Origin: Nocardioidaceae bacterium
Lineage (GTDB): Bacteria > Actinomycetota > Actinomycetes > Propionibacteriales > Nocardioidaceae
DNA: 37,872 nucleotides
Direction: 5' to 3'
Assembly: GCA_030447865.1 (NCBI GenBank)
Contig: JAUJOD010000003.1
Location: 91,127-128,998, forward strand
The notes under the pieces were generated by a model. The model did not search any database. It saw only the letters and a program-made list of their open reading frames with translations, and had not been told where the DNA came from. Both the position numbers and the translations under genes were made by a program. Below are positions 26,870 through 32,132 of the stretch, in pieces. Positions within the stretch are counted from its first letter, which is position 1. Each line of letters opens with the position of its first letter.

Positions 26870-26891
26870 GTCAGCGTCAGTAGACGCTGAC
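26870..26891 (-). terminator. Hairpin across the protease stop codon
   Basis: GTCAGCGTC (26870-26878) and GACGCTGAC (26883-26891) are perfect complements with a four-base loop, enclosing the protease stop codon (26877-26879). It may protect the mRNA 3' end or slow terminating ribosomes. Confidence 0.5.
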
Positions 26892-27971
26892 GCCGTACGC
26901 GTTGAGCACCTCGGTCACCGGCTGGAAGTACGTCGTCCCGCCGGTGCTGCAGTTGCCGCTGCCGCCGGAGGTCAGCCCGATGGCGTAGGTGCCGTCGAAC
27001 AGCGACCCGCCGCTGTCGCCACCCTCGGCGCACACGTTGGTCTTGATCAGGCCGTACACCGAGCCCTCCGCGTAGTTGACGGTGGAGTTCAGCGCCTGCA
27101 CGTAGCCGCCGCGCAGGCCGGTGGTGCTGCCGCTGCGCCGGACGTACTCACCGACATAGGCGTTGGCTGCGGCGGTGATGTCCTGGTAGCTGCCGTTGTA
27201 CAGGTAGACGTTCCCCGGCTTGGAGATGCTGCTGGAGTGGCGCACGATGCCGTAGTCGTTGCCGGGGAAGCTGGTGCCGGCGCGCGGCCCGAGGTACGTC
27301 GACTGGCTGGAGTTGGCGTACCAGTACGTCGCGATGTTCGTGCAGTGCCCCGCGGTGAGGAAGTAGTAGTAGCTGCCGCTGCGGACGTTGAAGCCGAGCG
27401 AGCACCGGGAGCCGCCGCCGTAGATGGCCTGGCCGCCGGAGATCGTGGGCTGCAGGCGTCCGGACGTGCGGTCGAGACTGGTGCGGGCCGCGAACCGGCT
27501 CGTCACCGCCCGCAGCTTGGCCATCTCGGACCGCGACACGGTGCGGTCGGCGGTTACGTCGACCTCGTTTCCGCGCGGGTCGATCGCCCACGCGGTGCCC
27601 GCAATGGTTGCCCGAGCGGTCAGGGCGTCGGTGACCCGGTCGAGCTGGCGGGTGCTGAAGGCGACCAGCCGAGGCTTTGCCCCCGCCGCGCGTACTGCAG
27701 CGAAGTCCTGGCGGCTTGTCACGTTGACGACCATCGTGCCGGTGCGAGCGTTGTAGTAAGTACCGGCCGCGTCGCCAAGCTGCCGCTCAACGCCGGTCGC
27801 GGCACGGGCCAGCACTCGAGCGGCGTCGGAGCGCTGCTCATCCGCGGTCGACTTTGCAGCCGGCGGAGTGCCGGCGGCCTGGGCGTTGGGAGTAGTGAGC
27901 AGCGCGGCTGCAAGCAGTCCTGCGCTAGCGACAGCCGCTACGGAGCTGCGACGGGCGGAAAACCGGGTCAT
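26877..27971 (-). CDS. Secreted streptogrisin-type (S1) serine protease precursor
   Basis: A 364-residue preproprotein. A Sec signal peptide ([20 protein letters not shown], cleavage near NAQA-A) is followed by an alpha-lytic-protease-type pro-region (about 40-175) and a mature chymotrypsin-fold domain beginning near [11 protein letters not shown] (about 177). The triad is complete: H209 in TAGHC, D239 in GNDYGIV, S320 in GGDSGG. Cysteine pairs 190/210 and 314/341 suit the usual disulfides. AGGTAGG precedes the ATG. The pro-region normally acts as folding chaperone and inhibitor. Confidence 0.95.
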
Positions 27972-28318
27972 GTATGCCTACCTCTCTCACGGCAGATGCC
28001 GTCTGCGGGTTCGGCGGCCCGACGCGACGTCCTCGTTGGGGGTCGTAGCGCCGTGCCACCGGCAAGGTCACGTGGGAGCATACTCACGGTTAACCGATTG
28101 TCACCCCCTGCGACCATATTTTTTGCAACCCGTCGCGTTCTTCGCAAGTAGTAGCCGAATCGGGCCGCAGTACGCCCGTTCTACGACGACTTGCCGTGGC
28201 GATCAGCGTGGGCGTCTCAACCGCCGGGTGCTTGCAACGCTGTGACCGGTACGTCGCCGGGCGGGCCACCCTGGCGCACACCTGTCGGTCGCGCTGTGCG
28301 CTGGGTACTGTGCCGGTT
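27972..28318. other. Divergent intergenic region between protease and sigma-RsbT gene
   Basis: About 350 bases without a gene. It holds a good minus-strand promoter with a palindrome (28077-28104), an AT-rich patch with a run of T (28117-28124 region), and a weak plus-strand promoter candidate (TGTCGG 28283-28288, 17 bp, TACTGT 28306-28311) that would start transcription at the GTG 28319. Confidence 0.5.
28077..28104 (-). promoter_or_regulatory. Protease promoter with palindrome in the spacer
   Basis: On the minus strand: -35 GTGACA (28104-28099), 16-bp spacer, -10 TATGCT (28082-28077), giving a leader of about 100 bases. The spacer holds CGGTTAACCG (28087-28096), a perfect palindrome in the position of a repressor operator. 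Confidence 0.5.
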
Positions 28319-29395
28319 GTGAGCGCTGCGCAGTCGGTTGATGCACCGCATGAGCCCAGCCAGCCCGACGTGGCGGCGCTGATCCCGACGGTCCGGCGCG
28401 TTGTCGGCTCGCGGGTGGCGAACCGCGAGCAGGCCGACGACCTCGTCCAGGAGACGCTGGTGCGCGTGCTCGCCGCGGCGGGCCGGGTGGAGCCGGGGAT
28501 GCTCGAGCCCTACGCCATCGTCACCGCCCGCAACCTCGTCTCGTCGATGTGGAAGGAACAGGACCGGCACCGACGCAACCAGCACCGGATCGTCGAGCTG
28601 CCCGCACCAAGGGCGCCGGACGAGGGTCTGTTGCAGCGGGAGGAGGGCGCCGCCGTCGCTGAGGCGCTCGCCCGGCTGTCCGAACGGGAACGGCAGACGC
28701 TCCTCGCCCACGAGGTCGCTGGTCAGGACACCCGGTCGCTCGGCGAGGAGCTCGGGCTGACGGCCGGCGCGGTCGCCGCCCAGCTCAACCGCACGAGGGC
28801 TCGGCTGCGTGTCGAGTACCTGCTGGCACTGGAGCAGGTCGGATCAGTCACCGACCGCTGCCGCCCCGTGCTGTTCGCCTTGTCGAGCGGCGACCGCCGC
28901 CGTCAGCGGGAGGTCGACGCGGCTCGGCATCTGCTGGAGTGCGACCTGTGCGAGCGACTGAGCCAGCCGTTGATGGAGCGGGGACAGCACAGCGACAACG
29001 AATCGCGCATCCGCATCCAGGCGGACGGCGACATCGTGCTCGCCCGACAAGGTGCCCGCGAGCTTGCCTCCCGGCTGGGGTTCTCCGGCACCGACCTGAC
29101 GGTGATCGCGACAGCCGTGTCTGAGCTGGCGCGCAACATCGTCCGGTTCGCCGGCGACGGCGAAATCGTGGTCGAGCTGCTCGAAGAGCCACGGGGCGGC
29201 GTACGTGTGGTGGCCCGCGACACCGGACCAGGCATCCCGGATGTCGAGCAGGCCCTCGCTGACGGCTACAGCACCTACCACGGTCTCGGGCTTGGATTGC
29301 CCGGTGCTCGTCGCCTGATGGACGAGTTCGCCGTGGTGTCGGAGGTGGGCCGGGGGACGACCGTGACAATGACCAAGTGGCGGCAGGAAGGATGA
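28319..29395 (+). CDS. Fusion protein: ECF-like sigma factor, HX3CX2C zinc finger and RsbT-like kinase
   Basis: A 358-residue protein with three parts. Residues 18-90: sigma-70 region 2 (ADDLVQETLVRVL, PYAIVTARNLVSSMWKEQDR). Residues 112-170: region 4 (LSERERQTLLAHEVAGQDTR and the helix-turn-helix after it). Residues 181-211: C181-x22-H204-x3-C208-x2-C211, the zinc-binding anti-sigma pattern. Residues 229-358: an RsbT-type HATPase with N-box E269xxxN273, DTGPGIPD (301-308), the glycine loop 322-329 and MDEF/TTVTMTKW ending. GTG 28319 is chosen because an upstream extension is Cys/Arg-rich noise. The stop overlaps the RsbR-like gene. Sigma activity and kinase activity are inferred from motifs. 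Confidence 0.88.
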   Translation: MSAAQSVDAPHEPSQPDVAALIPTVRRVVGSRVANREQADDLVQETLVRVLAAAGRVEPGMLEPYAIVTARNLVSSMWKEQDRHRRNQHRIVELPAPRAPDEGLLQREEGAAVAEALARLSERERQTLLAHEVAGQDTRSLGEELGLTAGAVAAQLNRTRARLRVEYLLALEQVGSVTDRCRPVLFALSSGDRRRQREVDAARHLLECDLCERLSQPLMERGQHSDNESRIRIQADGDIVLARQGARELASRLGFSGTDLTVIATAVSELARNIVRFAGDGEIVVELLEEPRGGVRVVARDTGPGIPDVEQALADGYSTYHGLGLGLPGARRLMDEFAVVSEVGRGTTVTMTKWRQEG

Positions 29396-29397
29396 CC

Positions 29398-30306
29398 ATG
29401 AACGAGCGCTCGACCGTGGCTGCTGAGGGGTCCGCGGACTTCCCCACACTTGCCCAGCAGGACGACGACGAGTTGCTGCCGCAGCTGGTGGCGCACCTGC
29501 ATGAGCACCGCACCAAGCTCCGCCAGGAGTGGGCCAGCCGCATCCAGGAGGCCGATCTGCTGCACGCCATGACCCCTCAGGAGATGGCGGTGGAGACGCA
29601 GTCGGTGTACGACAACTACGTCGAGGTGCTCGAGACCGGCAGCGTCGAGGCGCTGCAGGACTACGCCCGGGACCTGTCTGAGCGCATCATCCCGCGCGGG
29701 GTGGAGACCCACGAGGTCGTCGGCATCGTGCTGCTGCTGCGCGACGTACTGGCCCGGTCGCTGTTCGAGAAGTACCAGCGGGACTTCGCGCTCCTGAACA
29801 GGGTGCTCGACGCCTACGAGCCCGCCGCGAACCGCATCGCCAACACGGTCGCCGTCAGCTTCGTCGACGAGCGCGAGCGCATCATCCGCCAGCAGCAGGA
29901 CGCGATCCGGGAGCTGTCGACCCCCGTGCTGCCGGTCCGGGAGCGGCTGCTCATTCTGCCGATCATCGGCGTCCTCGACAGCGAGCGGGCCCGGCAGCTG
30001 ACCGAGCAGCTGCTCACCGGCATCCGCACGCACCGGGCGAAGGTCGTCGTCATCGACATCACCGGCGCCCCCGACGTTGACGAGACAGTCGCCAACCACC
30101 TCGTGCGCACCGTCGACGCCTCCCGCCTGATGGGTGCCAGCGTGATCATCACCGGCCTGTCCCCAGAGATCGCGCAGACCCTGGTCACGATCGGGGTCGA
30201 CCTCAGCAAGATGAACACGATCGGAGACCTGCAGGGCGGCCTCGAGGAGGCCGAGAAGCTGCTCGGTTACGCGGTGAGCCGACAGGACGAAGCGGCGGAG
30301 AAGTGA
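29398..30306 (+). CDS. RsbR-like stressosome scaffold protein (RsbRD_N plus STAS)
   Basis: A 302-residue protein. Residues about 25-165 are helical and match the RsbRD N-terminal sensor type (LHEHRTKLRQEWASRI ... FVDERERIIRQQQDAI); residues 170-290 form a STAS domain (ELSTPVLPVRERLLILPIIG, VVVIDITGAPDVDETVANHL). Compared from memory with Bacillus RsbR, the T171 site is S195 and the T205 site is E229, followed by T230. ATG 29398 is preferred: AGGAAGG lies six bases before it, while ATG 29392, which overlaps the previous stop, touches that site. A 4-base overlap couples it to the RsbS-like gene. Confidence 0.9.
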   Translation: MNERSTVAAEGSADFPTLAQQDDDELLPQLVAHLHEHRTKLRQEWASRIQEADLLHAMTPQEMAVETQSVYDNYVEVLETGSVEALQDYARDLSERIIPRGVETHEVVGIVLLLRDVLARSLFEKYQRDFALLNRVLDAYEPAANRIANTVAVSFVDERERIIRQQQDAIRELSTPVLPVRERLLILPIIGVLDSERARQLTEQLLTGIRTHRAKVVVIDITGAPDVDETVANHLVRTVDASRLMGASVIITGLSPEIAQTLVTIGVDLSKMNTIGDLQGGLEEAEKLLGYAVSRQDEAAEK

Positions 30307-30710
30307 ACGCTGGGCCGGCGCTGGTCTCCATTCTGCGGCAGGGTTCCTACCTGATCGCGTCGATCCACACTGCGCTCGATGACTCTCAGATGGTCAGGTT
30401 CCAGCAGGACCTGATCGGGCAGATCGGTCAGCACCGGTCGCGTGGCGTCATCATCGACGTGGCCGCGCTCGACGTCCTCGACTCGTTCGGGTCGAAGACG
30501 CTGCGCAACATCGCGGAGATGGCGCGGCTGCGCGGGGCGACGACGGTCATCGTGGGCATCCAGCCCGACGTGGCGTTCGCGATGGTGGAGCTCGGGATGG
30601 GGACCGGGTCGGTCCACACCGCCTTGGACCTCGAGGAAGGCCTGGCTTACCTCGACAGCACCGTGCCCAGGAGGACGGCTTCCGAGGCTGACGTCGCCGG
30701 CCGCGGATGA
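30303..30710 (+). CDS. RsbS-like STAS protein, copy 1
   Basis: A 135-residue single STAS domain. The segment IDVAALDVLDSFGSKTLRNI carries S61, aligned with the phosphorylated S59 of Bacillus RsbS (IDSF), and is followed by VIVGIQPDVAFAMVELGM and TALDLEEGLAYL as in RsbS. In stressosomes RsbS with RsbR holds RsbT until phosphorylated. GTG 30303 overlaps the previous stop (GTGA), and its own stop overlaps the next ATG. About 94 percent of the first 118 residues match the second copy at 31716. Confidence 0.92.
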   Translation: MNAGPALVSILRQGSYLIASIHTALDDSQMVRFQQDLIGQIGQHRSRGVIIDVAALDVLDSFGSKTLRNIAEMARLRGATTVIVGIQPDVAFAMVELGMGTGSVHTALDLEEGLAYLDSTVPRRTASEADVAGRG

Positions 30711-31021
30711 CGGCACTGGACGACGTACGGCGTGACTATCGCGCGGCGTTTCTGCGTTACCTGCCGCGTCGGGAGGAGGCCGCGCTGCACGTCGGCTACG
30801 AGCTGGGCCGGTCGGCGGTCACCGACGGGCTCAGCATCCTCGATCTGGTGCAGGTGCACCATGACGTGTTGTTGGAGGTGCTCCAAGACAGCCACGGCGA
30901 CGACCTGGCTGGGGTGGCCACCGCGGCGTCGGAGTTCCTGCTCGAGGTGCTCGCCACCTACGACATGGCGCAGCGTGGCTTTCTTGGTGCACGCCCGGAC
31001 GCCGCTGAGGGCGGCGCATGA
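30707..31021 (+). CDS. Stand-alone RsbU N-terminal (RsbT-binding) domain protein
   Basis: A 104-residue helical protein. It follows the RsbU_N pattern: YRAAFLRYLPRREEAALHVG, YELGRSAVTDGLSILDLVQV, HHDVLLEVL and SEFLLEVLATYDMAQRGF, paralleling the Bacillus RsbU N-terminal domain that binds released RsbT. The PP2C phosphatase domain that normally follows is absent: the frame ends after a short acidic tail, and no phosphatase is encoded in the next 6 kb. It may be a decoy or adaptor for the RsbT domain of the sigma fusion; that is inference. The ATGA overlap makes it the fourth gene of the operon. Confidence 0.82.
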   Translation: MTALDDVRRDYRAAFLRYLPRREEAALHVGYELGRSAVTDGLSILDLVQVHHDVLLEVLQDSHGDDLAGVATAASEFLLEVLATYDMAQRGFLGARPDAAEGGA

Positions 31022-31023
31022 CG

Positions 31024-31045
31024 CGGGAATCCCGATTCTTTTTCT
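31024..31045 (+). terminator. Possible terminator after the stressosome operon
   Basis: A short CGGG/CCCG stem (31024-31034) is followed by ATTCTTTTTCT, one of the few T-rich tracts in the window. The stem is only four pairs. Confidence 0.35.
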
Positions 31046-31246
31046 AGCGGCCGGATCTCAGTCCTGAGCCGGTTTCCTGGGCAATCAGGCGGCAGTTCCG
31101 CCTTTCCAGAGGAATAACCGCCAGCAGCTGGCCTCAGCGGCGCGGCGTCATGGCGGGACGCCTGGGGTGTCTTCATACATGTAAGCCCGAACAGGCAACC
31201 AAACCGCCTGGGGCACCGAGCACCACCGAACCAGAAAGGCTCACAC

Positions 31247-31540
31247 ATGAGCTACGCAAAGAAGACGATCGTCACGCTGTTCGCTGGAGCCGCAGTGATG
31301 GCAGGGACCGCCGCCCCGGCGCATGCAGCGAACCAGAACCAAGATGGCCTGGTCAACGTGACCATTGGCGACATCACCATTCAGGATGTCAACATCGGCG
31401 TAGCGGCCCAGATCGCCGCGCAGGTCTGCGGCGTCAAGGTCGGCCCCGTCGCCGTGCTCGGCGTGGCGGTGGACCGCAGCGGCGCCATGCGCACCGTGTG
31501 CCAGTCCGACCAGGGTGACGTGGTTCTCACCCAGAACTAA
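31247..31540 (+). CDS. Small secreted protein of unknown function
   Basis: A 97-residue protein with a clear Sec signal peptide (KKTIVTLFAGAAVMAGTAAP, cleavage after AHA near residue 27). The mature 70 residues are Asn/Gln/Val/Ile rich (DGLVNVTIGDITIQDVNIGV), with two cysteines (VCGVKVG and TVCQSD) that could form one disulfide, and end GDVVLTQN. I recall similar small secreted proteins in Streptomyces-like actinobacteria but no function. AGAAAGG precedes the ATG. A strong terminator follows, so it is a single-gene unit between the stressosome operon and RsbS copy 2. Confidence 0.85.
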   Translation: MSYAKKTIVTLFAGAAVMAGTAAPAHAANQNQDGLVNVTIGDITIQDVNIGVAAQIAAQVCGVKVGPVAVLGVAVDRSGAMRTVCQSDQGDVVLTQN

Positions 31541-31715: not shown

Positions 31716-32132
31716 ATGAACGCTGGGCCGGCGCTGGTCTCCATTCTGCGGCAGGGCTCTTGCCTGATCGCGTCGATTCATACTGCGCTCGACGACTCTC
31801 AGATGGTCAGGTTCCAGCAGGACCTGATCGCTCAAATCGGCCAGCACCGGTCCCGCGGGGTCATCATCGACGTCGCGGCGCTCGACGTGCTTGACTCGTT
31901 TGGGTCGAAGACGCTGCGGAACATCGCAGAGATGGCTCGGCTGCGGGGGGCAACGGCAGTCATCGTCGGCACTCAGCCCGACGTGGCGTTCGCCATGGCG
32001 GAGCTCGGGATGGGGACGGGGTCGGTCCCCACGGCTCTTGATTTCGAGGAAGGCCTGGCCTACCTTGCCCGCGCCGAGGATGGACGGTCTGCGGCTAGCC
32101 CGGAACCGTCCACAGGCAGAAATTGGGGCTAG
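31716..32132 (+). CDS. RsbS-like STAS protein, copy 2
   Basis: A 138-residue STAS protein that is a near-duplicate of 30303-30710: in the first 118 residues about seven differ (Y16C, G39A and a few more), and the DNA is roughly nine-tenths identical by eye, starting at the start codon. The S61 site (DVLDSFGSK) is kept. Most base changes are synonymous, suggesting selection on both copies. The C-terminal tail is unrelated to copy 1. It starts with ATG instead of GTG and lies 59 bases before the Tad ATPase gene, so it may be the first gene of the Tad operon. Confidence 0.9.
   Translation: MNAGPALVSILRQGSCLIASIHTALDDSQMVRFQQDLIAQIGQHRSRGVIIDVAALDVLDSFGSKTLRNIAEMARLRGATAVIVGTQPDVAFAMAELGMGTGSVPTALDFEEGLAYLARAEDGRSAASPEPSTGRNWG

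Follow-up and report, generated by a model that had tools for sequence, protein, structure and literature searches.

The window is a stretch of 37,872 nucleotides from a Nocardioidaceae genome (GCA_030447865.1, contig JAUJOD010000003.1). Its central feature is a gene in which an extracytoplasmic function (ECF) sigma factor, a zinc anti-sigma-type module and an RsbT-type kinase are encoded as one chain. The fusion gene is the first of a four-gene operon, followed by genes for RsbR-like, RsbS-like and stand-alone RsbU_N proteins, and each of these three genes starts with a 4-nt overlap. The features are as follows, in window coordinates.

28306-28311, forward strand: TACTGT, a -10-like hexamer 7 nt before the start codon, the probable operon promoter
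28319-29395, forward strand: fusion gene for ECF sigma factor, zinc anti-sigma-type module and RsbT-type kinase, 358 aa
28373-28567, forward strand: sigma-70 region 2, residues 19-83 (Pfam PF04542 Sigma70_r2, 41.5 bits)
28652-28807, forward strand: sigma-70 region 4, residues 112-163 (Pfam PF08281 Sigma70_r4_2, 32.4 bits)
28859-28951, forward strand: putative zinc anti-sigma-type module with C181, H204, C208 and C211, invariant in 51/51 proteins, with four predicted helices over 181-220
29033-29377, forward strand: RsbT-type GHKL kinase domain, residues 239-353 (Pfam PF13581/PF02518; SpoIIAB Z 18.8)
29392-30306, forward strand: RsbR-like co-antagonist with a STAS domain, RsbRD_N below the cut-off only, overlapping the stop codon of the fusion gene
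30303-30710, forward strand: RsbS-like antagonist, a STAS protein with the conserved target serine
30707-31021, forward strand: stand-alone RsbU_N domain protein, 104 aa (Pfam PF08673, 63.7 bits)
31146-31175, forward strand: CGTCAT-N18-TCTTCA, a promoter-like site and predicted target of the fused sigma factor
31247-31540, forward strand: small secreted protein of family B, a predicted target gene
31716-32132, forward strand: second RsbS copy behind the predicted target gene, sharing 85% identity over 130 aa with the product of 30303-30710

A secreted serine-protease-like gene (GGDSGG, recognised by eye) lies upstream on the minus strand at 26877-27971, facing away from the operon.

The open frame of the fusion gene runs from 28319 to 29392 and ends with a stop codon at 29393-29395, giving a product of 358 amino acids. 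The first-pass annotation had read it as a single polypeptide joining sigma regions 2 and 4, zinc ligands and an RsbT-type HATPase; the Pfam matches and the residue positions agree with that reading, and C181, H204, C208, C211, E269 and N273 are all where it had placed them. The protein matches TIGR02937 with 73.8 bits (cut-off 42.9), has no Pfam match for sigma region 3, and in its kinase part exceeds the Pfam cut-offs for HATPase_c (residues 262-352) and HATPase_c_2 (239-353). An AlphaFold2 model computed from an alignment of 51 proteins had a mean pLDDT of 85.7 and a pTM of 0.60. The kinase part of the model resembles SpoIIAB with a Z-score of 18.8 and an r.m.s.d. of 2.0 for 127 residues, and it also matches the RsbW fold. 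The sigma part resembles region 4 of SigL (Z 11.2, r.m.s.d. 2.2, 80 residues) and, with poor r.m.s.d., whole ECF factors. In the model, the folds of the sigma and kinase parts are as expected, and the sigma fold, for whose absence the first-pass annotation had advised looking, is matched over residues 11-173. Nine kinase residues (E269, N273, D301, G303, G305, G322, G324, G326 and G329) are invariant in 51/51 proteins, and sigma regions 2 and 4 show strong residue conservation across the aligned fusion proteins. The RsbT part of the window protein is a fused domain, unlike the free single-domain RsbT.

A locus scan with one genome per species yielded 72 loci, 49 of which match the fusion nearly over its full length, and 21 of which carry stand-alone RsbT genes. 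The frames of two of the 49 (L076 and L081) are broken in the respective records, and at L082 and L105 the match to the fusion is cut by contig ends; these four were left out of the protein alignment, which comprises the window protein and 50 distinct relatives. The set of 50 distinct fusion loci used for the operon counts below leaves out duplicates, L076, L081 and L082. A frameshift between the sigma and kinase parts, the other doubt raised at the outset, was not seen, as the frame is intact in the window and the fusion is near full length in the related loci. The intact frame and the 50 distinct related proteins rule out a frameshift or an assembly artefact. The sigma-RsbT fusion is real and conserved.

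The fusion occurs in some soil bacteria, its named hosts being Nocardioidaceae, Geodermatophilaceae, Intrasporangiaceae, a few other Actinomycetes and two Acidimicrobiales. The full fusion was found in 12 of 98 near relatives (a contig-end fragment in G051 was not counted), and 4 of 394 genomes sampled from the class, the own genome included, match it at 1e-60. In a tree of the kinase domains, fusions and stand-alone RsbT proteins separate almost cleanly, with two label changes, compared with a mean of 22.6 after shuffling and none as low in 500 shuffles; with few columns and long branches (L080), this tree falls short of proving a single origin. At L022-L026, five loci of the window's family, rsbR/rsbS are followed by two or three consecutive RsbT-like matches.

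Between the sigma and kinase parts, C181, C208 and C211 are the sole cysteines of the window protein, and a C-x(18,28)-H-x3-C-x2-C arrangement appeared in 1 of 20,000 shuffles of its sequence. C181, H204, C208 and C211, like E269 and N273, are invariant in the 51 aligned proteins, window included, and an upstream cysteine followed by H-x3-C-x2-C is kept in 53/53 when two relatives, L019 and L020, are added to the fusions. Pfam zf-HC2 gave no match among these 53 carriers at E-values up to 1, and the module alone as a query returned nothing useful in Pfam and PDB profile searches. A further sigma fusion, L028, is 32% identical to the window protein over residues 23-211 of the latter, and here a real zf-HC2 match falls at the place aligned to the window module. 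The label "zinc finger" is used here for a module with no Pfam match of its own because of the ligand pattern, its conservation, the four helices that AlphaFold2 predicts over residues 181-220, and the alignment with the zf-HC2 match of L028.

These sigma and zinc parts recur in L019 and L020, where a hydrophobic, membrane-like stretch and a different domain take the place of RsbT. By hydropathy means alone, the highest 19-residue value is 1.1 in the window protein, compared with 2.2 in L019 and 2.6 in L020; in the window protein, Pfam and hydropathy place the RsbT domain, not a transmembrane segment, after the zinc module. The sharing of both parts with L019 and L020 suggests that the sigma factor and the zinc module constitute a portable unit. 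This organisation recalls ECF48, ECF52 and ECF53 (e.g. SCO4117), in which, as described in sections of PMC8999054, an ECF sigma factor is fused to zinc anti-sigma and membrane domains. There, too, a single chain carries the ECF sigma factor and, after it, a zinc anti-sigma-type module; by analogy with these factors, inhibition of the sigma part in cis by the zinc module is plausible. They differ in that the third part here is a soluble RsbT-type kinase instead of a membrane segment, and release here would be brought about by a stressosome and not by proteolysis.

The partners encoded after the fusion gene are also widely kept. The rsbR and rsbS genes follow it in 49 of the 50 distinct loci, the exception being L080, and RsbU_N is in the operon at 46 of the 50; two of the remaining four stop at a contig end (L008 and L014), and two are truly without RsbU_N (L078 and L104). 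The target of RsbT phosphorylation in RsbS, a serine numbered S59 in Bacillus and Ser56 in Listeria according to portions of PMC7522486 and PMC9237128, is present in 50/50 rows (window and 49 loci). The RsbR proteins at fusion loci are less canonical, judging from aligned sequences, with poor conservation of the phosphosites: the position of Listeria T175 holds S or T in 34/50 rows and R in 10/50, and the place of T209, the brake site (window residue 231), holds Glu in 38/50 fusion-locus rows but in only 2/25 rows of stand-alone-RsbT loci, the window row being included in the 25.

In the RsbU_N protein, the residue equal to RsbU E24, which contacts RsbT, is conserved, and the place of Y28 holds His. 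On the other side of the putative interface, R243 and R247 of the fusion protein, which we take to correspond to R19 and R23 of RsbT, are invariant in the alignment. Binding between RsbU_N and the fusion protein would be expected from these residues. RsbU_N is also encoded at 19 of the 21 stand-alone-RsbT loci, in frames of 253-713 aa except for one cut by a contig end. The 104-aa protein of the window has no SpoIIE/PP2C phosphatase domain in Pfam. L080 encodes the fusion and RsbU_N without adjoining rsbR/rsbS, as does L082 as far as its contig reaches, so that RsbU_N may be the more basic partner there.

The genome, estimated to be 97.8% complete, gave no match to a SpoIIE-type phosphatase, and the classical RsbU route therefore appears to be missing. 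The RsbU_N of the window is the sole RsbU_N match in the genome, the one other protein exceeding the HATPase_c_2 cut-off is a histidine kinase, and a further STAS protein is encoded elsewhere. The genome also contains a SigB/F/G-type sigma gene over the cut-off, beside which no RsbW was recognisable by eye, and many further sigma-like matches.

The hexamer in front of the fusion gene recurs among its relatives. TANNNT precedes the fusion start by 6-7 nt in 38 of 51 upstream regions and, by a looser rule, in 41 of 51, compared with a mean of 2.5 and a maximum of 7 in shuffled sequences; this recurrence supports the chosen start codon. The 41 aligned upstream regions have no conserved -35 element before TANNNT, as in leaderless housekeeping promoters. 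The fusion protein is therefore probably made all the time, with its control likely to be post-translational. The lack of a conserved -35 element also speaks against autoregulation of the operon as a rule; autoregulation may be added in some species, because in G008 an exact target-type site precedes the fusion gene by 67 nt. At L053, L063, L064 and L081, one-mismatch sites are found farther upstream, at 300-410 nt from the fusion start, some of them preceding a small gene.

Comparison of the flanks identified two unrelated families of small, secreted-looking proteins adjoining the module, family A in 14 loci and family B in 5 loci and the window, neither with a Pfam match over the cut-off. 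The hexamer pair CGTCAT/TCTTCA was first noticed by eye upstream of these genes, and with a spacer of 18 it is present in 18 of the 19 upstream regions examined (13 of family A, 5 of family B and the window), the one without it being L075. L080 was left out because its start is uncertain, and the sites at L038, L058, L068, L073 and L095 contain mismatches. Across 50 fusion loci totalling 479 kb, a spacer of 18 gave 57 sites, in 38 loci, when up to one mismatch was allowed; 30 of these sites are exact, and 18 of the exact sites fall in 17 loci outside the discovery set. Other spacers (12-17 and 19-24) gave 0-4 sites each, the reversed pattern gave none in the same loci, and the 21 stand-alone-RsbT loci (187 kb) contain none. 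Twelve of these 50 loci have no site at this threshold.

A recognised target gene lies downstream of about 20 of the 30 exact sites. A family A gene lies behind 12 of them, a family B or B-like gene behind 6 (four assigned by eye), and a PRC-barrel/DUF2382 gene identified by Pfam behind 2 (L046 and L062), with a third case at L047 having one mismatch. No clear gene follows five others (at L044, L055, L057 and L065, and one of two at L062), and 18 of the 27 one-mismatch sites have no gene assigned.

At the scale of whole genomes, the exact motif with a spacer of 18 occurs in 8 of the 12 fusion genomes and in 13 of the 86 others by hand count (Fisher p 0.0004, a value that overstates independence because the genomes are related, just as all the motif and family counts given here are less independent than they look). 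This corresponds to 10 exact sites in 34.7 Mb for the 12 fusion genomes and 19 in 416 Mb for the 86 others. Family B matches at E<1e-30 came from 6 of the 98 genomes, each of them one of the 12 fusion genomes; in G022 and G027, the family B gene has the motif and lies on a different contig from the fusion. The other 6 fusion genomes gave no family B match, whereas genomes without the fusion gave two weak ones, with E-values of 6e-7 and 3e-4. These associations suggest that CGTCAT-N18-TCTTCA may be recognised by the fused sigma factor. The own genome contains one exact spacer-18 site, which would imply a small regulon or one less strict than the motif. We set aside a genome-wide regulon drawn from two-mismatch sites in the own genome as too noisy (213 sites, compared with 126 for the reversed pattern). 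Among the 19 one-mismatch loci listed for the own genome, L165 is the only one whose site is followed by a frame that has a ribosome-binding-like sequence; by eye, this frame resembles pyrR, and it was not counted as a target. A one-mismatch copy of the motif also lies near the gene start of L020, on the other strand.

Additional rsbS copies were found in the window, L046, L047 and L095, each downstream of a site and its target gene and on the same strand, the site having one mismatch at L047 and two at L095. This arrangement behind predicted targets suggests feedback.

In Bacillus, RsbS holds RsbT until stress leads to phosphorylation of RsbS and departure of RsbT, and free RsbT activates the phosphatase RsbU through the N-terminal domain and linker of the latter, as set out in parts of PMC7522486 and PMC12143880. 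The SigB pathway of Bacillus and Listeria likewise has RsbR, RsbS, an RsbT-type kinase and RsbU_N encoded in one operon. Here, in contrast, RsbT is fused to a sigma factor, RsbU_N stands without a phosphatase, and the genome has no SpoIIE-type match; compared with Listeria, the RsbS target serine is shared, whereas the T209 place of RsbR is mostly Glu at fusion loci. RsbRST modules with other outputs, namely diguanylate cyclases, histidine kinases and PP2C phosphatases, are described in portions of PMC9237108 and PMC12143880; RsbT is likewise the switch there, and RsbU_N is the docking domain in some. Where present in them, RsbU_N is joined to the output, whereas here the output is joined to RsbT and RsbU_N stands alone. 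The EcfG-NepR-PhyR partner switch, as covered in part of PMC8999054, is another case of stress-controlled release of an ECF sigma factor, but it differs in its sigma-mimicking response regulator, none of which adjoins the fusion here, where control would lie with a GHKL kinase and STAS proteins.

On the basis of the domains, the operon, the conserved catalytic and ligand residues, and the motif with its association with the module, all read from sequence, we consider it probable, with moderate confidence, that the locus encodes a stressosome whose releasable output is the sigma factor itself. In resting cells, RsbR and RsbS would hold the fusion protein via its RsbT part, with the zinc module acting as a built-in anti-sigma domain. 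Upon stress, the RsbT part would phosphorylate the conserved RsbS serine and the fusion would leave the complex. The freed RsbT part would then bind the stand-alone RsbU_N, which we guess would stabilise an open form or a dimer, and the sigma part would direct RNA polymerase to CGTCAT-N18-TCTTCA promoters of small secreted and PRC-barrel/DUF2382 proteins. In some species, the extra rsbS behind the targets would help to shut the system down. We infer the binding by RsbR/RsbS, the release, the cis-inhibition, the role of RsbU_N and the recognition of the motif by the sigma part from these features. The first-pass annotation had proposed that release from the stressosome frees the sigma factor directly, in one step. 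The direct route is strengthened by rsbR/rsbS at 49/50 loci, the RsbS serine in 50/50 rows, the lack of a SpoIIE-type match and the identity of the other HATPase_c_2 match as a histidine kinase; the single step is not supported as stated, since RsbU_N, present in 46/50 operons, may be a required second step. A more elaborate form, in which RsbU_N locks the released sigma factor in an open form and the induced second RsbS re-captures it, so that this short circuit would replace both the RsbU-RsbV-RsbW cascade and the RsbX phosphatase, is tentative and somewhat doubtful.

The fusion and RsbU_N at L080 and at contig-end L082, with a motif before a family A gene and no adjoining rsbR/rsbS, would also fit an opposite role for RsbU_N, that of an inhibitor that would clamp the RsbT and zinc parts to the sigma part until a stressosome or other signal relieves it, with the stressosome as a second, optional layer. 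We regard this as unlikely, since RsbU_N docks free RsbT and switches the effector on in the systems described in sections of PMC12143880 and PMC9237108, and two Acidimicrobiales loci are without RsbU_N. The zinc and sigma parts could instead serve mainly as a redox or zinc sensor, with RsbT adding a stressosome input to an oxidative-stress sigma factor held in the manner of RshA or ChrR; the ligands are invariant and include the sole cysteines of the window protein, and soluble zinc anti-sigma domains are often responsive to oxidation, as stated in part of PMC8999054. Yet the same module is kept in L019/L020 next to a membrane-like stretch and reads as a general cis anti-sigma module, and no redox gene is prominent by eye among the predicted targets, making a primary sensor function improbable. 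Equally improbable is that the fusion is a scaffold whose sigma part no longer transcribes, the motif being read by another sigma factor or regulator. The SigB/F/G-type sigma gene and the many further sigma-like matches would provide candidates, and the tie between sigma part and motif is one of sequence association, but conservation within sigma regions 2 and 4 is strong, and the motif, frequent where the fusion is encoded, was not found at any of the 21 stand-alone-RsbT loci.

Both halves of the reading that we prefer, a stressosome releasing the sigma factor, are known, as ECF-zinc fusions and as RsbRST modules with other outputs; we did not find their joining, a sigma-RsbT fusion, reported in the literature searched, a set without the main ECF classification. 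The legend of an output-type figure in PMC9237108 names a Sigma domain, perhaps just that of SigB. Stressosomes occur in many bacteria with unclear output. If the proposal holds, a sigma factor would be under direct control of a stressosome, with a small regulon and a candidate promoter predicted for it, which would shorten a long stress relay and make stress sensing readable with one reporter. It would also bring within reach the effect of bare RsbU_N on RsbT and the use of GHKL kinases as releasable anchors for other effectors.

Five of the exact sites (L047, L053, L056, L059 and L066) lie on the opposite strand, face the 3' end of the operon and are antisense to RsbU_N, raising the idea that an antisense transcript of the module's 3' end may be produced by the module itself. 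The window carries CATGACGCG at 31017-31025, where the RsbU_N gene ends; this is the -35 element and its flank in reverse complement. Similar places occur in L069, L070, L079 and L106, and by eye the reverse strand reads CGTCAT-N18-TCCGG or similar.
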